IMG/VR virus record: IMGVR_UViG_3300025133_000094
Coordinates: 1 to 64,000 of that record
Source: a virus
DNA: 64,000 bases
Direction: 5' to 3' (one strand)
The notes below the pieces were generated by a model. It made no database searches. It saw only the letters and a program-made list of their open reading frames with translations, and was not told the origin of the DNA. Each line of letters opens with the position of its first letter. The first letter of the stretch is position 1. A program made the position numbers and the translations under genes. Positions 1,496 to 64,000 of this stretch are shown one piece after another.

Positions 1496-1894
1496 ATGAC
1501 TGATCCTGAACATGATCGAATGCCTTTAAGAATATGGCTAGTGATTATAATTTTAATTTTAATGTACATAAAAACCTGTGGAGATGTAATGGGACTAGAC
1601 TATAGAGAAGATGGTAGATTTATTAAAGAAGATGGCGAAGCCCGTAAGCCAAAGAACGATCCGCATAATCCTAAGAATCTAATGAGGAGACAAAGAGACA
1701 AGGAGGGGGATGGCTATAATCAAGCCAAAGAAGGGTGGAGTCCAACAGCGTGGAATGATAGCGGTGCTGGTAAGGGAGACGCACCTAGACCACATGGTTG
1801 TTCGACAGAAGAGTGGGGATTGAAATATGATTTAGCTACCGGAAGAATAACTAAAGAAGAATTCGATAAAGGTATGGAGGAACTCAACTCTTGA
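1496..1894 (+). CDS. Small protein with N-terminal membrane helix and KGDAPRP motif
   Basis: The 132-residue reading starts with a predicted membrane helix (about residues 11-25, I/L/V rich), followed by a charged, soluble part with the motif GKGDAPRP near residue 91. That motif recurs in short uncharacterised phage proteins. The ATG coincides with the expected transcription start of the promoter just upstream, so the message would be leaderless. Alternatively translation begins at the ATG at 1589, which has GTGGAG just upstream and would remove the helix. The 3' end overlaps the RNA polymerase start by 4 bases, implying coupled translation. Function unknown; it may be an early membrane-acting protein. 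Confidence 0.65.
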   Translation: MTDPEHDRMPLRIWLVIIILILMYIKTCGDVMGLDYREDGRFIKEDGEARKPKNDPHNPKNLMRRQRDKEGDGYNQAKEGWSPTAWNDSGAGKGDAPRPHGCSTEEWGLKYDLATGRITKEEFDKGMEELNS

Positions 1895-4332
1895 AGTGGG
1901 CTAATGAAACAGATGTAACTAAGAGTAAAAGGCGGGGTGCTCAAGTAAAGTATGAAGAACAAGTACTTATGTATAGTCGTTCTAAATATTGGGATGAATA
2001 TAATAGAGCACCTGATGAGGGTGTTCCAGAACAAGAGCTTCTTGATTCTTCTGTTAAAGAATTAAGAGATACTTATCAAGAGTGGATAGATAATGCCGTG
2101 TCTTCAACTAAGACACCGTCTTGGGTAAGACCTCTACTAGAATTGGGTGCATCTAAGATGGCCGATATAACTATACGAGCTGTCATGAGATGTTGGTTCT
2201 CTTCTAATTTCTGGGGACATACACTAGAAGATGATACTCATAACGCACCACTAGCTCAGACAGTTGCTAATTTAATAGCACAAGATAGTTCAGATATAAT
2301 ATCTTATCAGAATGCTAAGAGTAATAACAAAAGCGATTGGATGAGTCAATCCAAGTTCATTAAAAACTGGACAGAGAAAAGATGTAAAGCTTTTTCTAAA
2401 AAGATGGGCGAACATATTAAACTTGGTATAAAAGAGAAGCATAACTTTGGGCATAACATGTTACGTATAGCTGCGACTAGTAATATAATAAACATGGAGG
2501 TTCGCTCTGTTAGACGGGGTAGGTTATATAAGAAGTATAGCTTTGTAGAGTTTCATTCTTCTATACTATCTAAACTACACAACAAACATGCGTTACTACA
2601 GACTAGTACTCTAGTCTATAGGCCTATGCTTACGCCTCCTGAATTACATACCGAAGCGTCTAGTGGTGGGTATATACACAGAGATATGCGTAAGCCTGTA
2701 GTACAGAGATATAAATCTAACTACTGGGGTGATGATATTAAGGATCAGAAGTTTTCTGTTCCATCTAGCTTAGTATTAGATGGACTCAATGGTTTAATGT
2801 TAACTGAATGGGCTGTTAATGAGGATGTATTAGAAGTTATGACAAGCATGTTTGAAAATAATATGTGTGTTGCTAATCTTCCTGCCTATAATTTTGAAGA
2901 GTTTATGTATAATGTGGAGTATCCCTCTGATGGTACTAAAGTAGATAAAGCTATATGGTGTCAGCGTAGACAGGAAGCGTGGTCGGACTGGTATAGACAA
3001 GAACAATCTCGTGGACGTATGTTAATTAGATTACAATTAGCTAATGACCTTAAGAAGTGGGGGTATTTTTATCAAGTATATACTCTAGATTTTAGGGGAC
3101 GGGCTTATACTATATGTGAACTGCTTAGTTGTCAGTCTTCTGACTTTGATAAAGGCTTAGTTAAGTTTGCTAATCCTGTAAAGCTTACAGCTAGAGGTCT
3201 TTGGTGGTTAAAGGTTAGCTTAGCTGGGCTCTTTGACCAAGACAAGGGCACACTCGAGTCTCGTGTTAAATGGGTTGATGATAATTGGGATATGATAAAA
3301 CGTATTAACGATAATCCTTATGAGAACTATGAGTGGATAGATCAACGAAAGAAAAAGAATAAATCTTTTCAAAGGTTAGCTGCTATAAAGAATATATGTA
3401 GAGAGGATGGCATGTCTTATTTACCAGTACAGTTAGATGGTAGGTGTAATGGTTCTCAGCATTGGTCTGCTATTATGGGAGATCCTTTAATAGCTGAGAA
3501 AACTTGTGTCATTCCTTCAAAGAAACCTCAGGATTTATATCAGTTTGTTGCTGACTCAGTAACAGACTATTGTTTACTACATAAAACCGAAAAAAAATGG
3601 TGCAAAATTTTTCTGGAACATTGGAATGGCTCTATAGATAGGGCTGTTGCTAAACGTCCTACTATGTGTGACCCATATGGTTTAACATTTTATGGAATAC
3701 AAAAGTATTTAAAAGTAGAAGGTCACCTTGACTGGGTATCTAAAGATAAACAAGGGGGAGCTATAGTTGAATTAGCTAGAGCTATAAAGGCAAGCATGGA
3801 TAAATGTTTAGCCGAACCTAACAGGGGTAAAGAATATTTAAAAGAGGTCGTTGGTATAGCCAATGATTTAAATAAACATATAGAATATACTACCCCTTCT
3901 GGATTTAAGGTTGTTCATTATTACAACCAAGTTAATTCAAGAAGATCGGTAGCTAAGTTGTTTGGGAATAAGGAACTCTCTTTCTTTATACCAACTACAG
4001 ACGTGAACAAACGGTCGGCACTACAAGCAATAGCGCCGAATTTTATTCACAGTTTGGATGCTGCTCACATGTTCCTAACATTAGTTAGGTTGTTACATAT
4101 GAGTGTGTTCAGTCTAAGTTTCATCCACGATTCTTATGGCTGTCATGCTAATTTTGTAGATGACATGAGAGATATACTCAGAGAGGAGTTCTTGAAAATT
4201 CATAATGATAATCCATTAGAAAATTTCAAGAAGGATGTACAGAATCAACTAGGTGTTATGCTACCTGAAGTACCCAAGCGTGGTGCTTTGATTATAGCTG
4301 ACGTTTTAGATTCTGAATACTTCTTTGCATAA
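1891..4332 (+). CDS. T7-type single-subunit DNA-directed RNA polymerase
   Basis: At 813 residues it is slightly shorter than T7 RNAP (883). All polymerase landmarks are present and correctly ordered: DFRGR with R404; motif A LDGRCNGSQHWSA with catalytic D516; motif B R584-x3-K588-x7-Y596-G597, where Y596 corresponds to T7 Y639; IAPNFIHSLDAAHM; and motif C IHDSYG with catalytic D747. It ends in EYFFA, resembling the T7 FAFA foot. The start is a TTG at 1891, supported by GGAGG ten bases upstream and a 4-base overlap with the preceding gene; the first in-frame ATG (1969) would remove 26 residues. It should transcribe the phage's middle and late genes from phage-specific promoters. Confidence 0.97.
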   Translation: MKWANETDVTKSKRRGAQVKYEEQVLMYSRSKYWDEYNRAPDEGVPEQELLDSSVKELRDTYQEWIDNAVSSTKTPSWVRPLLELGASKMADITIRAVMRCWFSSNFWGHTLEDDTHNAPLAQTVANLIAQDSSDIISYQNAKSNNKSDWMSQSKFIKNWTEKRCKAFSKKMGEHIKLGIKEKHNFGHNMLRIAATSNIINMEVRSVRRGRLYKKYSFVEFHSSILSKLHNKHALLQTSTLVYRPMLTPPELHTEASSGGYIHRDMRKPVVQRYKSNYWGDDIKDQKFSVPSSLVLDGLNGLMLTEWAVNEDVLEVMTSMFENNMCVANLPAYNFEEFMYNVEYPSDGTKVDKAIWCQRRQEAWSDWYRQEQSRGRMLIRLQLANDLKKWGYFYQVYTLDFRGRAYTICELLSCQSSDFDKGLVKFANPVKLTARGLWWLKVSLAGLFDQDKGTLESRVKWVDDNWDMIKRINDNPYENYEWIDQRKKKNKSFQRLAAIKNICREDGMSYLPVQLDGRCNGSQHWSAIMGDPLIAEKTCVIPSKKPQDLYQFVADSVTDYCLLHKTEKKWCKIFLEHWNGSIDRAVAKRPTMCDPYGLTFYGIQKYLKVEGHLDWVSKDKQGGAIVELARAIKASMDKCLAEPNRGKEYLKEVVGIANDLNKHIEYTTPSGFKVVHYYNQVNSRRSVAKLFGNKELSFFIPTTDVNKRSALQAIAPNFIHSLDAAHMFLTLVRLLHMSVFSLSFIHDSYGCHANFVDDMRDILREEFLKIHNDNPLENFKKDVQNQLGVMLPEVPKRGALIIADVLDSEYFFA

Positions 4333-58000: not shown

Positions 58001-58648
58001 ATGGGAAACCGCCCAGAAGATATAATTAAAGCAGCTGAAGACGATCCAGTAGGATTCTTTTTGATGTATGGAAGTCGTCTGCCGATATTTGGACGTTACG
58101 GCGGCCTTGTAGCTGAGGGAATTAACATAGCGTATTCAGGTATAAACAATCAAACGCCCGGTGCCTTTATACCTAGTGCTGCTATTACGGCTCAGACCAA
58201 AGGTATTATTAGAGCAGTAGGAGATCCTACTGTAGCTAACCTTATTAATGCTAGTAGAACAGTTCCAGGAATGGATCCCCTTATACGGATGGCTCTTATA
58301 CACGGACTGGGAGGCAAGGAACTAGAGAAAAAATCTAAAGGCTCTGGTACTTCGCCTAGTAACCAACGTCATGCTACTTGGGGACTCAGCCAAGCCGATA
58401 GTCAGATTACTGATCTTATGTTAGCTACTGAGCTGGTTAAGTATCTTGATGTTGGCGATGAAGCACGATGGCTACCGCAGGTTGCGGCTAACCAAAGAGG
58501 TAACTTATTCTCTGCCAAACCTATGCCCGCTGAGCCCGCAGAAGCCCCTGCTGCCCCTACTATGGAAAGTGTTGGGGAGCCTAGTATGGTGTCAAGGATG
58601 GAACAGCCAGGAGGATCTAAATTAGCTGATCTATTGCAAGATAAGTAA
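43097..58648 (+). CDS. Giant polyvalent virion protein with RNAP-like, exonuclease and peptidase-like regions
   Basis: 5,183 residues from one frame. It starts at GTG 43097, with AAGGAG 8 bases upstream. In order: a hydrophobic Gly/Ala segment near 290-325; a coiled coil about 690-775; zincin site HEVGH 909-913 with E949 in EAFAD; a single-subunit-RNAP motif B R2117-x3-K2121-x7-Y2129-G2130; a DEDDy exonuclease (D3335-I-E3337, H3395-N with D3401, Y3535-x3-D3539); a second HELSH 3800-3804; a hydrophobic helix about 4947-4968; and a Pro/Ala-rich tail. This multi-enzyme build fits the polyvalent proteins that phages inject with their DNA. Most of it is unassigned. A T-tract terminator follows. 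Confidence 0.88.
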   Translation: MANRLWNVAPIDPVFSHSFINEHYEEEVGELNRLNNALPFKGVTRKDYENFSMSARRDRFTGELVRGPLELWDSLRQSGDMYFKRGYTATHAGAEQLSASLMLRTEEEREKLKDTKYLKYSSEGTEFLKSFSEGTVWNFARMTGRTYTDLNGKTRWRVPIDPLNGIGDGSWGMAATPEDIFKHEAPEGWTPKEALKEMEEVDPDMLQKYQMFLGGEEEVKKITKDTRNPYEFFYRLNEELQNRNIAESLAYQFKQNEEAGKSYINWYEQWGKEFLISSIINDPDMAGSLTIAAALTVTTGIGGVIAEVIHAGAKIGRYGKTADRLLTLAAGVHKVTAMVPKGAMFLPENLGPSLIRLKFGAQAWKTKSFVNRAGWITLGNIGEGTITGALAELSNQTFQIDKQSMDEYHQKEILRQAMFEAAISPIINPMLGSVMFRVPRLPLYTMSFINRGIGKLRPSAGARGTAVGNYFKSIVSKMNIDHIGQRIQGSRDVLRAAKDWGHMLGQDPKKIEALLNDEGLVQIFAAIMKAKGIDESFTIAHISEAIADLRKAHDENVRLALEEGKPVPATFSEIELGAMLARTVLAKQGLQLSQLDGATQNLVGDMGMRLFILGEKKKKFEADKIEMTWEEFAKHIEDNDPELFWREGVPQESKKSGETLFEEQVGGNWGALPWREKLGWAMYADDIAVDAVAAKKEIKLDEINKISNEVDAIRNDIVPKTEKEIDTKREAEAATTENVEERLEEVKHDIDGVIHATNDENAKIQEELDKFADTLLVSPEPGETVAVIDVTGDIKAEMQARLEGQPFTKEGFTLDENGILWDDRIDAEAVSEINQIIEEVAGDAVVIREVVIDDLSDIDGLDAAAMITGMGVDSQGNLVFKITISEHVAGLLVHERADFRDAGRQTVAHEVGHAVHDQMTDAEMKEFLAILEAEGIVTDAMNHGDLTQEAFADLWAMYMNPDATFHFAGINLENPGMSARPKGQEVKNRADIPAMMLAFLRKIRDRLRIKSAKAETAAAEASTVTLENLDSIQRFGVLWDYAAANGWVKDTPSVQMKWESNFEGLKNLIKQQLQRKLTPSEQTPEEESLRRRQKRNIKFLRRLDVLGTQIDKELRAWKESEHGYSPELLDAEIQLNKVKKEHLDLINQFEKEQPALHSVQKIYRESLSILRGKIFFSETTMGDLKAEVKVTELDSADVVILRTLLDNLPAKKKIVVPKTARSGINNAVVILSNFLAGDSLMSEVKFKVIQKEVNLYLSRQFEGLAKTMARTKVEDKSKEVFEKFSDYNTIMNELIVKRIQRTGDSMLTAATIQDSLAWQESSYRTLEAYGEAWTKIVNGLDAEGKTEMALSTLLRHLPRTSRYRINQTELINVGKLRRDSKIKTWKAKEIFHNETGRARKSISKLDRNAFGDIRVNIGPLDFAKNFAHEVTSDTMLNVPLTADFKKKNITPGTTLDGSKVVMEETVMSFEDWRHHLELWHADPAEPHNKTDEGDVIITGTQLLANLDPDFRAKGVGLASMFRGALINQWKTIEDLRRLNTETPTLKFRYKDVATALSEKAAAGRLLSHIESNAIITELAEQAFQQLDKHNNPSLYNAHDVAIEVINQVESSFKKADKAGYDMFGFVLRWDDENGLPVHSPHTVDKDTWISAVKKQVVKRLEVATHGGIKPDTLNRIYDIFGIRELKPDAQTKLSTPQYEQLADIMVSNLHRTRRNGPTIDIADFGNGNREWHSAYDLGNQIVDAFTKEEMYTTKQLYASKDIHPDARGSEAEVGPGEKTAVQPPLEGDLNFVTRRSLWEIDRIMKNGLFREGRIAFVLNRDNLTSSVIKAYNKVKEEGGFRFPEGTIHVSDVMPVSLIPYVQGDILQQPPMTQEQVKKYLLNIALNTPQQANTIVHDKIIAAKDNVLRLNQKDGMPIATEFIGMGGDFGYPYHMVGMIRAMELGSVHAKGLTKNSINLVSKLQAEWQENHKVDLSTEEGLNKARRDFFDHSTGHDMMFSGRYLTFMQSRMGDPKLAEQMFQIEKAVAELLYNEDLGEYQYDINVLQTETKEWYRAGTLHILNLITGLNQAQRSRLGAKVKPLLDILQPLRDNDINTLEDWKIFEDKNPNDPKVRVIRAFMKLPLMRAMYGMEKAGWLKIFRDSEGTDMLKKVYKTLEIELDSTDIEHIGDILFHGAIEGTGQLMYRALGLEYEGEPGKSPKAEALKWMEMDRSADTLLTTVKDLLKSHGTELRSSRDSSGREFNKLYQLDTHEKYLKASIETQASVEFRTNEPTAEQIKKIKDKYAPLREMEDFLKQDDIPSDFGPGHKRWNEYKQIPYKNLMPESQIGAFRAFTTLNSSGYRIAIKALETTARHLGLENFNADIFLGLERYVFYHNMLPSEKAVRGFDTQAGSGMSPIGIGIEKVLTNEALFKEWATTEWAKLKADRKAKGDTSPMTIAEYDTLVRKYIALDPDRAEILGTQELVDGGLIQMYKENGLESVEAEIEMLMLQNELLYQSTYGPPQLINYHLEDDIAILNNQTAMNWFKNTVENADTRAREKANQEQLLSDSQNNAYAEKMLELVQQAGNNLLRSQGPIKPYVNTERARLDVFPNNSDPLTILNQQQKGVRAFDPLYTTVPYTDKPNFFFLKQYHERKMREISHTLDLIVDESSKEQHVLDPNDLGYPMPWKEKDMPKPVNTVTNDLNNILQRTDISPRTSELFHSLNNFAKRKGTLYTDALSKLEDAYPYMYLTMKMEEAKDNIILAKRRFRTEMTPAEITALRAEWLGDLHTLSQFSRDTKLAEIGPHALETAGMDIAFANVPSEAIAIIDQLQSIYASEDKPNGLLFQPTMLQGPLKMGLTPADIRIQAKDDQGNPTDELVYTDLEANPLANQNMDMSILLFAIEYPNYIKPIIDEHYPQYSDIKTFEDWTLLIDPKHKVEIEALAAESVTGADGKGFGQSIVFDMSIMDSLHEGKIDPNRVLLTIDEANIVEVDGEQINYQLNHLLSKAGFGFFMQSPSAIKGKTLQMTISHRGALKMMLMLENHAPFRRMRESMWAKIPYGTVETALGEIDISRPTNEILRDKFGHNMRASHEDNIELHGALSVMAKTVGEKKLKPTYDPTRGMKGSKRFAMTDLDYYSVNKLADSGLVRPWLESHISVLSEVVTSARRSGYEMFQKELFTEIDTLIEGARKGEQENIATAIAFSVMFSQGEQTGNWTPDHQMMRVFMDERNFNEGEVSNALMKADLLLNKIAKATDLDTTWFNNPINLRARAYIQNMTKADLENFTEGDNTSKLTGMFIESLGETPDIGHYVVNELGDALDLLGGEGVNLHESVDYRAWLEDREKVINVDIETNLSQDNISVITLSQKDTGFKNTVRGKKVGDWVTPDQAQEHLNFLEDMQNKGYKVAFHNGVSFDTRILGNVAGSRHSDASMQTAVQNQASRIAIRTVDSLDNGRSFKGEMVEYTDSGKIRSKGNNYYVSLSNLAKALGIKQTKSLEFGGLEAALLFERVRGETVTLGSEAKKVGMTQEHIDVINNTTKMKAWNKFKKYAEGDAELGYKVLYGDGDVQGLADIRGELTVDYAPDPKTGNERKVTLNVEEMMPTWLLSQRESGRFHGTLSQFSEWENVNTITRALSNTDHTARSMVGFEGESFLIDNGGEQLTVNAKQAKAAIGLAIGEWQAEKHYEPTSWLDDEVLQFTYNNVKSAKKFREFAIDRDDAHLENLGITIEKLVLNEYINNEDAVMFRAMILRLNQINPFTVKDITMETIQRLVKETKPGSAERVGDSYKLRIGEEATQLLGKTEGHMSVVQMFAHELSHLTRLRFVDENNGTWQRWLAYAESNAGKAMMLKLVTQWHGGIETQAVLNEVDGYIRDPEEFIAAQTSFFLLNDVQHIQADFTADEYKAYSESVGIVTRIINNVRDMFRKIADVFVEFEKTDSDAYKEMVSLVTHTLGYKNKGHLKAVRKGQRDGQLYWMDRIEVNRKKYKYSLDDLKTMVIREKQLEKIRDISGMWTTEQATELVKLKEQLQSADATDRSVLGFTRAEQSVAWEQLTHEFSRFEIEEGTPSGERILDIVRVFNEGNSKQKAQAMDWLLSQIQKIYGSAITAKSGEFFAIAARKAESILPGLATDRIRSMLTNLMAANTGAQYTWNSISIMPVLLTALLDDEVVTTFADFTKGDTPSVRRTLDAFNKYSDLLNGEQGEILSLINSIGAKALGTGPSEHAAALMQHINEAVLRGAQSLRGGAHFNIDEEIHPSVRNHPKWAEIKVHILGGELRGDKVFGMIEAYKNQIEAIESKGIEIGEFSRNFIQIAPWYFSKSLMDGDNMDMFWREMPIEIDNHIRQELDKKHAGIDPLYFFQAGLLPRVDTFLMADLKQMETTHLHMLRVIAGLVNKRVNPDVAHMLTDPVDELFARLESENVTVNTMWREATSKTVGFLMSQMGRQDYTFKRLVKDLKIYSPDITKVEINAIRLAYKNVIGTDVGSSRLSSLRALNNKAIPSSVWAPGSLTSAGVKMKTEGLMTAADMHTRNILVRASGGVYFSNDSWSIPSVLDVVARNDKIRSVVSFDTPAISGALLRGVGDRIFELNMMHELFGIYGDYRSIINLFAEVVDKPFREITNPDGTLVNTKELLKSAHILLDKWRAYRHIKQVPDHQSSMEAWLFKNAPNFVKIVFGPSLSLASLSTEHTLAMMSELLGKRSIGGFARQALGPLTSLSKERRKRIARSMASSLTRIDKAFLPDSQMPATMDKAGFLDKWSSLNMRIAHHVHESIGMARTENIRLEIADMIKDGKIENLIKLMHKSGDQAYLRTDELLSNPDHLIKLAREAKIGSAFDTVIITMNKTGLLNMGTFAMMQQMVVESTQEYNRYYDTNEMLMLLLENKKTMDNDVFRMREDIIQALRDVETAYVHDVMVQAKPMDTSTRGGMMDYIFELFRKYPVLFFLQHVMRKSSRHTPIRWATGVMALMLLDVLYMMLLRISMGNRPEDIIKAAEDDPVGFFLMYGSRLPIFGRYGGLVAEGINIAYSGINNQTPGAFIPSAAITAQTKGIIRAVGDPTVANLINASRTVPGMDPLIRMALIHGLGGKELEKKSKGSGTSPSNQRHATWGLSQADSQITDLMLATELVKYLDVGDEARWLPQVAANQRGNLFSAKPMPAEPAEAPAAPTMESVGEPSMVSRMEQPGGSKLADLLQDK

Positions 58649-58714
58649 TAACGAGGGGCCCAGGTCATCTTGAGCAAGGAAGCTCGTACAGGCGATCCTA
58701 GGGCCCTTAAAAGA

Positions 58715-58739
58715 CAAAGGAGAAATCCTTTGTTTTTTT
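58715..58739 (+). terminator. Strong intrinsic terminator after the giant gene
   Basis: A perfect 7-bp stem CAAAGGA/TCCTTTG closed by a GAAA tetraloop is followed by seven T. It ends the late transcription block. Just upstream (58652-58706) the two GGGCCC blocks can pair over a small inner hairpin GAGC/GCTC, adding a structured 3' end. Confidence 0.92.
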
Positions 58740-58743
58740 CCAC

Positions 58744-58763
58744 GGGAATCGACTATAGGGGTC
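58744..58763 (+). promoter_or_regulatory. Candidate phage RNAP promoter (T7-class-like)
   Basis: The sequence GAATCGACTATAGGGGTCAC includes ACTATAGGG, nine bases identical to the T7 promoter start region, five bases beyond the T-tract of the preceding terminator. It lies upstream of a gene cluster, the right place for a promoter. No aligned set of sister copies was found, so it remains a candidate. The 114 bases downstream to the first gene contain runs of C and G but no gene. Confidence 0.4.
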
Positions 58764-58877
58764 ACGAATTTATCTGGGGTGGTGTATGGATTAGCAGGGC
58801 TGTAGTGCCCCCCGTACCCCCCAGGTTGACGCCTGCCAGGCTGGTGGTATTCGTAGCAGGTAAAAAGGAAAATTATT

Positions 58878-59147
58878 ATGCTTATAATAATAGGGATCGT
58901 AGCGATCATTGGCATCGTGGCAGTAGTACTCACTGTACTGAACTTGGACCATCCTAGTATGAGTCTGGAGGAGGACAGTGATGATCTACGCCGCCGTCAT
59001 AACCAGAAGGTTCGTAACGCTGGTTATACAACGATGAAAATTCTCGTCGAGGACGAGGATCGAAAGTGCTGGTCGTGTGGGCATATATTTGGAACTGACG
59101 ACTCCATGTGTTGCCGACACTGCGAGCACCCAATGGCGAGCGAGTAA
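58878..59147 (+). CDS. Membrane-anchored zinc-ribbon protein
   Basis: An 89-residue protein: one N-terminal transmembrane helix (LIIIGIVAIIGIVAVVLTVL), an acidic/basic linker, and a C-terminal zinc ribbon formed by CWSCG and CCRHC. AAAGGA lies upstream of the ATG. First gene of the region after the late terminator. Function unknown; the topology would put the ribbon near the inner face of the membrane. Confidence 0.7.
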   Translation: MLIIIGIVAIIGIVAVVLTVLNLDHPSMSLEEDSDDLRRRHNQKVRNAGYTTMKILVEDEDRKCWSCGHIFGTDDSMCCRHCEHPMASE

Positions 59148-59251
59148 GCCGAAACTACCGGCGTGAGCCTGGTAGTCTGTCGTGAGTGGTCTCACGGCAC
59201 TGACGAGGCAGACCCTCAGCTCTCTGGTGCTTAGCACCAAAGGAATCCTTT
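59148..59251 (+). other. Short intergenic interval with three hairpins
   Basis: ACTACC/GGTAGT (from about 59153), CGTGAG-TGGT-CTCACG (about 59180), and TGGTGC-TTA-GCACCA (about 59225) are perfect stems. The last lies just before the AAAGGA ribosome site of the next gene. None has a T-tract, so processing or stability elements are more likely than terminators. Confidence 0.45.
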
Positions 59252-59494
59252 ATGAAAAAAGGAAAAAGTAAGAAAGGTAAGCCGAATCCTTCGAAGAGAC
59301 GGCGCACTACGTTGCAGCGAGCCGCGGCAGAAGCCCGTACTCGCATGAACAAGGATCGTCGTATAGCACGTTCGATGCGTTTCAGCGGTAGCAAAGGTTG
59401 TATTCGTTTAACCGAATGGATATATAATAGCCGCCGAGACAGCTTAGTATCTCGAACTAATCGCAAAGCAATCGTCCACGTTCCTGCTGCATAA
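59252..59494 (+). CDS. Very basic 80-residue protein
   Basis: Rich in Lys and Arg, mostly in the first 55 residues (KKGKSKKGKPNPSKRRR), and likely to bind DNA or RNA. AAAGGA precedes the ATG. Arg is coded mainly by CGT and other CGN codons, unlike the AGA-rich late genes. No family recognised; an early nucleic-acid-binding or host-takeover protein is possible. Confidence 0.6.
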   Translation: MKKGKSKKGKPNPSKRRRTTLQRAAAEARTRMNKDRRIARSMRFSGSKGCIRLTEWIYNSRRDSLVSRTNRKAIVHVPAA

Positions 59495-59555
59495 GTAGGA
59501 TTCTAAGGGCATTCCACAACTAACTCAAGGCACTAACAAAAAGGAGACTTTGCCT

Positions 59556-59564
59556 ATGATTTAA
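59556..59564 (+). other. Candidate two-codon minigene (ATG ATT TAA)
   Basis: AAGGAG (59541-59546) is followed after 9 bases by ATG ATT TAA. The surrounding 130 bases have no other gene. It resembles phage lambda bar minigenes, which encode fMet-Ile and act by trapping peptidyl-tRNA. It could be chance. Confidence 0.3.
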
Positions 59565-59627
59565 GGACTGCTAGTACCTATACTTCGGGAGTGTTACACT
59601 AATATCCTTTAATGGAGAATTTCTATT

Positions 59628-61475
59628 ATGAAATCAAAAGATATAAAGACCGCATCAGAGAATGTGGCATCAAAGCTAGCATTACAGCGAGGACGCCTAC
59701 GTTCTTTCTTGTTCCACAGAGGTGGAAAGAAAGTAACGGGCGTGGCTGTGGACCACCTCCTTGGTCTGACCGAGGAAGCATTGTTCGACAACGGTATCGT
59801 CGTGGACAGTGACATGCTCAACGGAGCTGTCGCCCAAGGCGTTACTACAGCAACTCGTAAGATACTACATAAGAACCTATTGACCGAATCTTGGCAGGCT
59901 CGTCGTGACGGCAACGTCTCGACAAACCCTATCGAGTTGACGGGATACTGGAAACCGATCGTCTCACGACGTGACAACCTTAAGCTGCCCTCTGAGTATA
60001 AGGACTTTATGCAGTATCAAAGTAATATAGCAGTTCGTTACAACAAAGACATGGTGACTGCCCTAGTCGCATGGCAAGAGAAGTTTGGTCCTGATGACAA
60101 ACTTGTTCTCTCTAAACGAGATCTTGAGACCATCAATAAGGTAGGGTACGTAGTTATCTACCAACCTTACTACATTGCATGTCGCGTTGCACGTATCTAC
60201 CAAGGCACACAGGGTGCAGGTGGCTACACTAACGGCAAGGGGGTACGCTATAGTACTGAGTTCGCTGAAGGTCGAAAGGTTAATGGCAAGCAACAGGCAC
60301 AATTTATGACTCACATAAAAGCTGAGTATAAGTATAAGAAGGCTCATTCAAAATTCTTAGGTGACAATACACTGGCTAACCGTACTGCGTTCTTACGTAA
60401 GTATGGTAACCCTGGTTTGTTACGTGCGTGTCTCGAGCTTATCTACATTGCTGAGACTAAGAAGTCAACGATGATTATCTGGCAAGACGTGCACACCTCA
60501 TTAGTGTGTCATATCTATGCTATGTTGCGTCGTAAGAACTTACGCAGTATTGTAGACATTAACCATCCAAAGTGGTTCAATCGTCATGATTACTACATGA
60601 ACAACATGTTAAGTAGCTCTCTCGATAGCGCTCCTTTCTTTCGAGCATGTACTCCAGGACAACGTGCATTGTTTACTAAACCATCCTTTGTACCGTTTGG
60701 TCACGGAGCTGGTGCTGACTCTTGTCGGTACTCTGTACTCAACACAGATGATATGCACTGGAATGCCGAAGCTCCAACGGAATTGCGTGACACTATGAGC
60801 TTGAACGAATTGGTTGACGCCATACGTACAGGCACTAAGCAGGTCCGAATTCCTGAACAGTTCAAACTTGCTCTTCGAGCAGCTTGGCCTGGTTGGAGTA
60901 AGAAGAAAGCTATTACTGAAGATATGTACAAGGACAAACTTGTTATAATCTTTGATGATCTTAAGACTGTGTTCGCTGGTTCCTACAATCCATTAGTTCG
61001 GTTTAATAACCGTGCCGTATTGGTGAAAGAGGCATCAGATACTATAGGCAAGCTACCACCTTCATATACCAACAGGTTTGGAATGAAGCTCGTGCAAACG
61101 AGATGGAAGCGAGATCCTAACAGCTCACGCACTATTAAGAACAAAACCACTTTAGCTGGTGTTACTCCCACGCCATTGGATGTTACCTTCGATAAGCGAG
61201 TCGCCTGCACAGGCAGCGAGTTCGCAGTCAGTATGCCTCACTATAAGGATGCTGAAATGAATGTCGGAATCGGTAATGAATTCATCCAAGCTGATAAAGA
61301 CTGCCTAAGTATCCACGATGCTTGGGGTGTACGGCTAGAAGACATGGACTTCTTAATTGAAGTCAGTGCCAGACAGTTTAGATACACGCATGAAGAACCT
61401 ATGCTTAATAGCATGGGGTATGAAGTGCCTGCAACTTTACCACACCTTGGTGATAAATTCCAAATCGTTCGTTAA
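59628..61475 (+). CDS. Putative second, highly divergent single-subunit RNA polymerase-like protein
   Basis: A 615-residue protein with no easy family match. Four landmarks of T7-type polymerases appear in the right order: RVARIYQ (R189; in place of DxxGRxY), IIWQDVHTSLVCHIYAML (D287; compare D-x-S-x-G-x-Q-H-x-x-A-M-L), TKPSFVPFGHG (K351, then H359-G360 where Y-G is usual) and SIHDAWGV (D564; motif C). Spacings 98/64/213 compare with 112/72/159 in the phage's own RNAP. The N-terminal promoter-binding part seems reduced. The Tyr-to-His change in motif B is unusual. The ATG follows ATGGAGA. Early-region codon usage. Alternative: an unrelated protein with chance similarity. Confidence 0.6.
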   Translation: MKSKDIKTASENVASKLALQRGRLRSFLFHRGGKKVTGVAVDHLLGLTEEALFDNGIVVDSDMLNGAVAQGVTTATRKILHKNLLTESWQARRDGNVSTNPIELTGYWKPIVSRRDNLKLPSEYKDFMQYQSNIAVRYNKDMVTALVAWQEKFGPDDKLVLSKRDLETINKVGYVVIYQPYYIACRVARIYQGTQGAGGYTNGKGVRYSTEFAEGRKVNGKQQAQFMTHIKAEYKYKKAHSKFLGDNTLANRTAFLRKYGNPGLLRACLELIYIAETKKSTMIIWQDVHTSLVCHIYAMLRRKNLRSIVDINHPKWFNRHDYYMNNMLSSSLDSAPFFRACTPGQRALFTKPSFVPFGHGAGADSCRYSVLNTDDMHWNAEAPTELRDTMSLNELVDAIRTGTKQVRIPEQFKLALRAAWPGWSKKKAITEDMYKDKLVIIFDDLKTVFAGSYNPLVRFNNRAVLVKEASDTIGKLPPSYTNRFGMKLVQTRWKRDPNSSRTIKNKTTLAGVTPTPLDVTFDKRVACTGSEFAVSMPHYKDAEMNVGIGNEFIQADKDCLSIHDAWGVRLEDMDFLIEVSARQFRYTHEEPMLNSMGYEVPATLPHLGDKFQIVR

Positions 61476-61488
61476 TAACTAGTACGGA

Positions 61489-61515
61489 GGGGGAGGCCAT
61501 ATGTTTGGTCTCCCC
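61489..61515 (+). terminator. GC-rich hairpin after the polymerase-like gene
   Basis: GGGGGAGGCC and GGTCTCCCC pair over an 8-base loop, 14 bases after the stop codon. No T-run follows. It could stop or protect transcripts ending after the polymerase-like gene. Confidence 0.5.
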
Positions 61516-61547
61516 TGATGTACGCAATCAGGAAAGGGATTTCTATT

Positions 61548-62123
61548 ATGACTAAAACAAAGAAATCAAAGTTACGCTGGGCCTCTCTTATATATCCAGC
61601 ATCTATGGCTGATATATCAGGTCACTGTATTCTTGTCTTCGATACGGAACTTAAGAATTATACCATTAGGTTCCTTACCCATGATCTTGACCCTAAGCAC
61701 ATGTATTACTCAGGTGTTACGGAAGAGGTAATTGGTGTAGACGGCAACAGTATTACTAAAGGTGAGATTGGTAATATATGTAATAGAATCGGCTTACGCT
61801 TGAAGCCTCGCTTAGAGATAAATACTTTCGATGTGAGTGAGTATTATACCTTACACTACGGTGATGAGGTGATTGCTACACACAAAGGAAATAAGATGTC
61901 TGTCTCTATTACTGGCAGAAGTACCGTTTACTTCGATGATGTAGGAGAGCCTATTGAAATCACAGTAAAAGGTAAACCTGCTGTTAGCTTAAAGGCAGCT
62001 CGTGCCTCATGGTGGAGCGAAGCAAAGAATTATCCAGCCATACACTGGAAGGGTGATTTAGCTGTGCTTTGCGTTGCTGATGAGATCAACATCGATGTTG
62101 ATGATGATGATGATGCTGCTTGA
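61548..62123 (+). CDS. Hypothetical protein with acidic tail
   Basis: A 191-residue protein from the ATG at 61548, after GGAAAGGG. An N-terminal basic stretch (TKTKKSKLR), a predicted alpha/beta body, and the tail INIDVDDDDDAA. Acidic tails of this kind occur on SSB-like and DNA-mimic proteins, but no SSB fold is evident. The sequence just before its start, ATTTCTATT, is the same as before the polymerase-like gene. Function unknown. Confidence 0.65.
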   Translation: MTKTKKSKLRWASLIYPASMADISGHCILVFDTELKNYTIRFLTHDLDPKHMYYSGVTEEVIGVDGNSITKGEIGNICNRIGLRLKPRLEINTFDVSEYYTLHYGDEVIATHKGNKMSVSITGRSTVYFDDVGEPIEITVKGKPAVSLKAARASWWSEAKNYPAIHWKGDLAVLCVADEINIDVDDDDDAA

Positions 62124-62164
62124 TGACTCGTCTGGGCGAGTATAAATAGAACCTAAGCCTAGAG

Positions 62165-62192
62165 CGTCCGACCCTACGGGGTCGGGGCGTTT
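62165..62192 (+). terminator. Probable intrinsic terminator
   Basis: CGTCCGACCC pairs with GGGTCGGGGCG through ten pairs and one bulged G around a TACG-type loop, followed by TTT. It lies shortly after the acidic-tailed gene, with a smaller hairpin (ACTCG/CGAGT) just upstream at the stop codon. Confidence 0.6.
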
Positions 62193-62499
62193 CCCCTAAG
62201 TGGGCCTATCTACCATGATTTTTTATGAAGGGTGTACCCCGTTCAAGATACAGCCGTATAGGTGTGTAAGGGCTGTATCGCAATAGGTGGGTTAAGAGAA
62301 CAAGGGTGGATATAATATAGGGTATACCTAGGTCTTAGGGTATACGTAAGTATAGCCAGGAGAACCCTAGGGTTCCAGTACAGGGCAAGCCGGGGGACCT
62401 TAGGTCCGCGGCTTGCCCCATCAGCCAGAAATTATGGTCAAGTTCCCTGACTGGCAGGTAACAGTATCATAATAATCACCCTATTAGAAGGAGAATATC
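62193..62499 (+). other. Intergenic region with palindromes and short repeats
   Basis: No gene is seen. It contains a perfect inverted repeat GATACAGCC/GGCTGTATC (62247-62279, 15-base loop), a direct repeat TAGGGTATAC (62318 and 62336, 18 bases apart), a 14-base perfect palindrome GAACCCTAGGGTTC (62362-62375), and a long hairpin GGGCAAGCC/GGCTTGCCC with inner GGACC/GGTCC (62383-62418). GATATAATATAGGG at about 62309 slightly resembles a phage-type promoter. Candidates are operators, promoters or a replication origin. Confidence 0.5.
62232..62246 (+). repeat. Direct repeat GTGTACCCYGTTCAA, copy 1
   Basis: GTGTACCCCGTTCAA here recurs as GTGTACCCTGTTCAA at 62934-62948, one difference in 15, about 700 bases apart. 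Each is followed by A-rich sequence. Possibly a phage promoter or protein-binding site. Confidence 0.5.
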
Positions 62500-62757
62500 A
62501 TGCCAAATGATAAACTTACCCCTAATGACGTGGCGAAAGCCGAAGCAGTCCTTAACGGCAAGGGTTTCACTACCGTAAAGCGGTACACAGACCCTGACAC
62601 CATGGATTTCGATGAGCTGTGCTTCACTCTTAACAACAAGAGTGCTATCGCAGCAGCAACGAAGGCTATGAAACGTAAAGGTTGGACCTCGCATCCGTAT
62701 CTTACACACATTAAAGCGTGTGAGGCGAAGCTAAAGTCCTTACTGGCTAACGGTTAA
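62500..62757 (+). CDS. Hypothetical 85-residue protein
   Basis: Preceded by AGAAGGAG. Two helical halves separated by a strand: LTPNDVAKAEAVLNGKGF and SAIAAATKAMKRKGW. Small, mixed charge, soluble. No family recognised. Stands alone between two long structured intergenic stretches. Confidence 0.65.
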   Translation: MPNDKLTPNDVAKAEAVLNGKGFTTVKRYTDPDTMDFDELCFTLNNKSAIAAATKAMKRKGWTSHPYLTHIKACEAKLKSLLANG

Positions 62758-62771
62758 AGCCCGCATTCAAC

Positions 62772-62810
62772 GGTCCCCCAGGCGGGGGGCCCTTATATGC
62801 TTGCTTTTTT
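62772..62810 (+). terminator. Probable terminator before the structured region
   Basis: GGTCCCCC/GGGGGGCC forms 8 pairs around AGGC, with a run of six T about 13 bases further on. The gap to the T-run is longer than ideal. Confidence 0.5.
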
Positions 62811-62814
62811 CTAA

Positions 62815-63475
62815 GTAACAGCAACACCCTAAGCTTACAGGGGTGTAGCTCTTGAGCTATGCAAACTTCAGCAGCTCTCAGCTGATATCAAAGAGAGACA
62901 ACCCACACTGGGACCCATCAACTGTGGTCGGGTGTGTACCCTGTTCAACAAAGGCGTTCGACAGGGCATGTTGTCATGGACATCCCATGTAACCCCGCTT
63001 TACTTATGTAATGACATGGCGAGGTGTCCGTGACAACATGAAAAACCAAGGTCGCTCCTTGGTCGGTGAGTTGGCACCTGAATACCATCATGGTAATGCA
63101 TTACTATGATGGGGCTAGAGGGCTTCACTCGTTCTAATAGAGTGACATCGATATCTAATAAACTAATGCACGACGGTGCAGTTCGTGGCTGAACAATCTC
63201 TTCAGTAAGGAGATAAGGCACACAGTAGACCATGGTGGTCTGACCAATGTACACAATGTATGAGGTCATCCTCGTGACTGAGGATAAGGTGGTAGGTGGT
63301 TGTAACAAATAATATTGCTCCTCTGCCCTGTAGGTAATAAAAGAATCCTACCGAACACAAACAACAACCTTGTGAGACATGCACGGAGGTGTGTAGTCCT
63401 AGGCTACCTAAACTAGATGCCCTCACATTGTAGTATAACCTCTCGTCTCGTCCACGATACGGACACAATATACTT
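62815..63475 (+). ncRNA. Candidate large structured RNA
   Basis: About 660 bases without a supportable gene on either strand but with at least ten strong hairpins. These include ACACCC/GGGTGT (62824), TAGCTC/GAGCTA (62846), a 16-bp stem 62967-62982 with 63025-63040 (one G-U), ACCAAGG/CCTTGGT (63045), a 28-base near-palindrome (63085-63112), CACTC/GAGTG (63126), TGCAC/GTGCA (63167), AGACCA/TGGTCT (63227), ATCCTC/GAGGAT (63268) and GTAGG/CCTAC (63330). Length and density recall large ornate phage RNAs such as GOLLD and ROOL. The strand is assumed. A packaging or origin region is an alternative. Confidence 0.45.
62934..62948 (+). repeat. Direct repeat GTGTACCCYGTTCAA, copy 2
   Basis: Second copy of the 15-base element, inside the hairpin-rich region and just 5' of its longest stem. 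Confidence 0.5.
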
Positions 63476-63488
63476 AAGGAGGTATCAT

Positions 63489-63680
63489 ATGACGATACAC
63501 ACTACAGATTTCCCCAAAGAGGGAGACAAACCAGTACTTCAGTTCGTTACAGGCTTTACCTGTGACCACTGTGGTAGTACAGACGTAAAGGAAACAGGGC
63601 TACGTAAGAGTAGCTTTGGTCAGTGGTTAGTAACCAAGTGTGGTAACTGTGATGTTACTGTACTGTATAAGACAGAATAA
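63489..63680 (+). CDS. Small zinc-ribbon protein
   Basis: A 63-residue protein with CDHCG and CGNCD pairs 27 residues apart, a four-cysteine zinc ribbon. AAGGAGG precedes the ATG at 63489; the upstream open frame lies in the structured region and is not used. Possibly a nucleic acid or transcription-related factor. Confidence 0.75.
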   Translation: MTIHTTDFPKEGDKPVLQFVTGFTCDHCGSTDVKETGLRKSSFGQWLVTKCGNCDVTVLYKTE

Positions 63681-63691
63681 GGAGATCATAT

Positions 63692-63955
63692 ATGTGTAGA
63701 AAAAATGTAATCCCTAACGGTATGAGATATGATTACCGAGAGGATCCTAATCTAAATGAGTTACAACTAGCTCATATCAGGGGAGAGATAAACCTATATG
63801 ATTCTATTCCAGCTACTAAGCAGGACTGGTATCATGATAAGAAAGGTAACAACCACTATCCTATAGAGGGTACTAAGGTTGATGCTAATCTGCCACCTAT
63901 ATATCTTCAATGGAAAGATGATTATAGAAAGCGGATAACTAATGCCAAAAGATAA
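63692..63955 (+). CDS. Hypothetical 87-residue protein
   Basis: Starts after AAGGAG, 11 bases downstream of the zinc-ribbon gene. Rich in Tyr, Asn and Asp (MRYDYREDPNLNELQLAHIR). No family recognised. The last 14 bases overlap the next gene. Confidence 0.65.
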   Translation: MCRKNVIPNGMRYDYREDPNLNELQLAHIRGEINLYDSIPATKQDWYHDKKGNNHYPIEGTKVDANLPPIYLQWKDDYRKRITNAKR

Positions 63956-64000
63956 GACACTGTCAAATCTGTTGGCATCTTACTATAAACAAGCACAAGA
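63942..64000 (+). CDS. Partial gene running off the window
   Basis: The ATG at 63942 opens a frame (MPKDKTLSNLLASYYKQAQ) that is still open at the window end. It overlaps the previous gene by 14 bases, like many genes here. Too short to assign. Confidence 0.4.
   Translation, partial: MPKDKTLSNLLASYYKQAQ

Follow-up and report, generated by a model that had tools for sequence, protein, structure and literature searches.

Phages of the T7 type are the textbook case in which one phage RNA polymerase (RNAP) takes over from the host enzyme, and phage N4 has in gp2 a helper protein that binds single-stranded DNA. The N4 enzyme RNAPII, which has 673 aa in total and a truncated N-terminal region, transcribes the middle genes and requires gp2 (PMC4496689). 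That one phage can carry several single-subunit RNAPs (ssRNAPs) is already known from the N4-like phages and from Lactococcus phage KSY1 (PMC11476376). The latter has two ssRNAP genes, gp014 and gp033, of which gp033 is barely detectable (PMC11476376).

The window, meaning the whole stretch of DNA analysed here, is 64000 bases long and comes from an IMG/VR virus record of 65181 bases. Besides its main T7-type RNAP it encodes a 615-aa protein (Table 1) that is a highly diverged single-subunit RNAP of the T7 type. A preliminary description of this DNA had proposed such a second, deeply divergent enzyme, and the proposal was borne out by stepwise homology through intermediates, synteny, near-absolute conservation of the catalytic residues and the predicted fold. 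The ORF and the residues named there (R189, D287, K351, H359-G360 and D564) were all found in place, and the residue spacings were right, being 98/64/213 in the second RNAP and 112/72/159 in the main RNAP. The resemblance to the T7 motifs held for their order and for the catalytic residues; the DxxGR element is only partial, reading CRVAR, in which the Arg is kept and the Asp and Gly are replaced.

Table 1 Features of the two polymerases and of the neighbouring gene. Positions refer to the window; fractions denote members of the second-RNAP set or, for the neighbouring gene, slots.
Feature	Positions	Strand	Evidence
Second single-subunit RNA polymerase, 615 aa	59628..61475	+	Homology chain, family profile, fold
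Main T7-type RNAP, 813 aa	1891..4332	+	PF00940 3.2e-77, phrog_414 5.9e-147
R189 (T7 R425), DxxGR element	60192..60194	+	Context ACRVARIY; Arg 22/22
Motif A, IIWQDVHTSLVCHIYAMLRR; D287 (T7 D537)	60474..60533	+	Asp 22/22; hhalign register
Motif B, KPSFVPFGHGAG; K351 (T7 K631), H359 (T7 Y639)	60678..60713	+	Lys 21/22, Tyr 21/22
HYKDA element; H538, D541 (T7 H784, D787)	61239..61253	+	His 16/22; Asp 19/22, Glu in 3
Motif C, LSIHDAWG; D564 (T7 D812)	61305..61328	+	Asp 22/22
Adjacent 201-aa gene, weak candidate for a partner of the second RNAP	61518..62123	+	148-266 aa ORF in 13/24 slots

Searched as a single sequence, the 615-aa protein had no match in Pfam or among PDB sequences, and searches of phage records and IMG/VR with the protein alone gave nothing useful. 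The sole hint was phrog_4756, matched with an E-value of 5e-4 over motif C (residues 538-582). The family is listed without a known function; because it matches the stretch around motif C in two second RNAPs, those of the window and of L131, it may, as far as such matches can tell, be another unrecognised ssRNAP family. Since the single-sequence searches were empty, the main RNAP (1891-4332) served as the starting point instead: its relatives were fetched from IMG/VR, and the sequence upstream of their RNAP genes was read. A homologue of the second RNAP was found in the same slot at 23 related loci, as an ORF of 570-720 aa lying 4-9 kb upstream of the main RNAP and, in the records that read far enough that way, directly after the C-terminal end of a giant structural gene. 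The two RNAPs occupy opposite ends of the window record, so that their neighbourhood there assumes that the ends of the record join; those of the related record G007 do join, with an end overlap of 141 bases. The set used below consists of 22 complete or nearly complete members, including the window and G017 (joined across contig ends), and there are two partial members besides (L011 and L014). The near-complete record G022 has no intact slot ORF, yet its contig ends fall within the slot, and the sequence of G011 does not reach the slot. Scans with the close relatives L130-L133 returned the query loci alone, and no relative was found in the genome contigs searched in order to identify the host. 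Three queries against the 50,697 phage records turned up no second ssRNAP that holds its position across a lineage of T7-type phages, and no cultured phage with this second family; the matches in the records had no more than 26% identity, and almost all of them were annotated RNA polymerases. As a separate observation, T7-type RNAP profiles match a protein of 855 aa in Vibrio phage 2.058.O (101 kb; L150:1741-4308) that is annotated as hypothetical.

The homology itself runs through a chain of intermediates. With phmmer, the window protein matched second-RNAP homologues only among all ORFs of the related loci, the best being L076 (1.9e-9); the L076 group in turn matches L013 (2e-70), and L013 matches T7 RNAP directly (3e-7). 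PF00940 has no match to the window protein itself and matches the homologues L013 (3.5e-30), L014 (3.5e-14) and L129 (3.1e-12). Nearly all members were linked by all-against-all comparison, L138 being tied to the others by slot and motifs only. We also scanned 202 window frames of at least 60 aa with a profile of the 21 syntenic relatives from which the window row had been removed. It matched the second RNAP (2.1e-57, a value somewhat flattered because the profile was cut from an alignment built with the window row in), the main RNAP (1.5e-43) and no other frame; the phmmer result is independent of this profile. In hhalign, a profile built from the seven members closest to the window protein matched T7-type RNAPs with an E-value of 1.9e-12 and a probability of 97.7, and its register placed D287, K351, H359 and D564 opposite D537, K631, Y639 and D812 of T7. 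Judged from these sequence comparisons, the resemblance of the second RNAP to RNAPs is far beyond chance.

Residue counts were taken from a joint alignment of the 22 second RNAPs with T7, N4 and main RNAPs. D287 sits within IIWQDVHTSLVCHIYAMLR, and K351 and H359-G360 within TKPSFVPFGHGAG. Across the family the DxxGR element has its Asp in 18, its Gly in 16 and its Arg in all 22 members, and the equivalent of T7 Y571 is kept in 18/22. The motif B Lys is missing in one member, L138, whose slot protein (L138:2947-5013) may, to judge from this residue, be inactive; this counts against the reading that we prefer below. In T7, Y639 forms a hydrogen bond with the ribose 2'-OH, and its substitution shifts sugar selectivity (PMC4551944). 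At this position the window protein alone has a His, the other 21 of the 22 members having Tyr. His359 is a single codon, CAC at 60702-60704, one base away from the Tyr codon TAC, and no near-identical contig spans it, so that no function should be rested on His359 yet. The altered substrate choice that the preliminary description read from this His would in any case not be a trait of the family. It is a substitution at one site and is not decisive for membership of the ssRNAP superfamily.

AlphaFold2 gave a model with a pTM of 0.60 when family members alone were used, in which the palm was confident and the fingers were poor (a point against the reading preferred below), and a second with a pTM of 0.75 when closer relatives and main RNAPs were added. 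Because the alignment of the second model contained T7-type RNAPs, the first is the independent one. The second model has the motif B helix at 343-358, and both place the motif C region in a beta hairpin (559-568). For both models the top Foldseek matches in the PDB were T7 and mitochondrial RNAPs, with a probability of 1.00, and the first model also matched phage RNAPs in a viral library with a probability of 1.00. The predicted fold thus has the right-hand polymerase palm whose absence the preliminary description had regarded as fatal to its proposal.

The median pairwise identity of the second RNAPs is about 24%, a generous figure because the alignments were global; that of the main RNAPs encoded alongside them is 57%. 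Among close relatives, dN/dS was 0.16-0.18 for the second RNAP and 0.06-0.12 for the main RNAP. By these measures the second RNAP evolves fast, is under purifying selection and retains its catalytic residues, and this argues for an active enzyme. Across this group of uncultured T7-like phages, hardly anything beyond the residues of the catalytic core has been preserved in it. In the tree, the main RNAPs form one clade (100/100), and the long-branched second RNAPs belong neither to it nor among the T7-type references. The exception is the longer second RNAP of L097 (L097:3271-5394), which groups on the main-RNAP/T7 side and, given that position, may be of separate origin. A single group of all second RNAPs was not rejected (p-AU 0.22), and likewise without L097 (0.66). 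N4 joins L024/L037 with weak support and on long branches. A recent duplication of the main RNAP was considered as the source of the second and was unsupported by this tree.

We consider it rather probable that the second RNAP is a compact, N-terminally shortened polymerase which transcribes a subset of the phage genes in the manner of N4 RNAPII. Catalysis would be of the two-metal kind, by D287 and D564, the Lys of motif B and the Arg of DxxGR also taking part. Compared to T7 RNAP, the protein has about 235 residues fewer ahead of DxxGR, the Arg being at 189 vs 425 in T7, a truncation as in N4 RNAPII, and the conserved C-terminal foot is absent. In T7 RNAP the region ahead of DxxGR binds promoter DNA, and promoter opening by the second RNAP would presumably be helped, as for N4 RNAPII. 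Since no other large gene precedes it in the early region, it would be expressed early, probably from host-RNAP transcripts, as far as gene order alone can indicate, and we infer that it would transcribe its genes earlier than the main RNAP or alongside it. Searches for promoter motifs by k-mer counts and a simple EM procedure in the intergenic DNA of five genomes gave none well above shuffled controls, and sigma-70-like sites were no commoner than in shuffles. A second promoter class was not found in these searches, which counts against transcription of a gene subset by the second RNAP.

Several other explanations were weighed. Coincidental motif resemblance in a protein that is not an RNAP would agree with the empty searches of Pfam, PDB sequences and the phage collection with the single sequence; the profile, synteny and structure evidence effectively refutes it, and we give it practically no weight. 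An active polymerase that serves mainly in replication, by making origin primers or as a primase-like or special-template polymerase and not for mRNA, appears unlikely. T7-type RNAPs are able to prime replication, which was counted in its favour. So was the change to His359 at the position that discriminates the ribose (PMC4551944). The Tyr is, however, retained in the other 21 members, the main RNAP could do the priming, and the phage has a DNA polymerase and a Toprim primase-helicase of the T7 type, so that no primase is missing; the primase-like role that the preliminary description had raised is for this reason not favoured. Neither do we think it likely that the protein is an RNAP-derived regulator, which would make little RNA and would set the timing of transcription by binding the main RNAP, the host RNAP or DNA. 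Very fast divergence outside the core, the partial loss of DxxGR in the window protein and the absence of the motif B Lys from L138 would all fit such a regulator. Against this, the catalytic Arg and the two Asp are the same in all 22 members, and the Lys is present in 21/22, at about 24% identity; a family that had given up catalysis would hardly be expected to keep them.

The position of the second-RNAP gene directly after the giant structural gene might suggest that its product is made late or packaged in the virion, and that it enters the cell together with the DNA, as the N4 virion RNAP does, to transcribe the first genes. This seems very unlikely to us, as the two genes are about 1 kb apart and have two small ORFs between them, the second RNAP is not fused to a virion protein, and small early-type genes lie between it and the main RNAP. 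The giant ORFs (2481 and 5183 aa, 35652-58648) occupy over 1/3 of the record and have essentially no Pfam or PHROGs match; when these two proteins were searched for a hidden virion RNAP, neither a vRNAP nor a family-profile match was found.

On the other side of the second RNAP, an ORF of 148-266 aa lies within about 130 nt downstream in 13 of the 24 slots. These ORFs resemble each other weakly (leave-one-out E-value of 0.025 for the window copy), and the adjacent gene is therefore taken as a lead only, a weakness that counts against the helper in the preferred reading. The 201-aa product has an acidic tail. The downstream ORFs occur mostly in genomes with more degenerate second RNAPs, and several of them share an 'RFFPxD...Y' stretch and a C-terminal stretch like 'F..HF.GC'. 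Further along the early region, 62124-63416 is mostly non-coding and rich in short inverted repeats, and 58400-64000 has 12 terminator-like sites, most of them on the minus strand, where shuffles give 3.7. A more elaborate scheme would be a lineage-wide programme of two ssRNAPs in T7-like phages, with the second enzyme a minimal RNAP that has a dedicated, fast-evolving partner gene and its own promoter set, and in which the Tyr to His change seen here loosens ribose selection so that deoxynucleotides are also incorporated; we hold this scheme to be quite improbable.

We found no position-conserved second ssRNAP across a lineage of T7-type phages, and no paper on this phage lineage, in the literature searched. 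The evidence suggests a two-polymerase programme of gene expression not yet described in T7-type phages, and a lineage that keeps a second ssRNAP at one fixed position would represent an alternative design for a transcription cascade. At one end of the family (L073, L013) the motifs are close to canonical, and at the other the sequences go undetected by Pfam; the family thus charts how much an ssRNAP can shed with its active site preserved. Such ssRNAPs escape standard annotation. They are natural compact RNAPs, one of them with a changed ribose-discrimination residue, and are open to direct testing.

Among known systems, the T7-type RNAPs (PF00940/phrog_414, including those of T7 and LUZ100 and the 813-aa enzyme of this phage) have DxxGR, motifs A and B, HxxD and motif C in the same order as the second RNAP, and share with it the catalytic Arg, Asp, Lys and Asp and the predicted palm and fingers. 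Unlike them, the second RNAP has a partly degenerate DxxGR and His for the motif B Tyr, is without a Pfam match alone, and co-exists with a T7-type RNAP. The likeness to N4 RNAPII lies in a compact ssRNAP with a truncated N-terminus, encoded in the early region of a phage with another ssRNAP; that other enzyme is a 3500-aa virion RNAP in N4 and an ordinary T7-type RNAP here. N4 RNAPII consists of two chains (gp15-gp16), whereas the second RNAP carries all motifs on one chain of 615 aa, so that the comparison with N4 RNAPII in the preliminary description is plausible in size and N-terminal truncation and fails in the number of chains. With the N4 virion RNAP (phrog_2206) it has the ssRNAP superfamily in common, but it is a separate ORF and not a part of a giant virion protein. 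Both KSY1 ssRNAPs match the second-RNAP family profile (5e-22 and 6e-25). KSY1, an elongated phage related to phi29, has its genes in another order and is one genome, not a case of a slot shared across a lineage; what is new in the present case is a second ssRNAP throughout a lineage, beside the T7-type RNAP.
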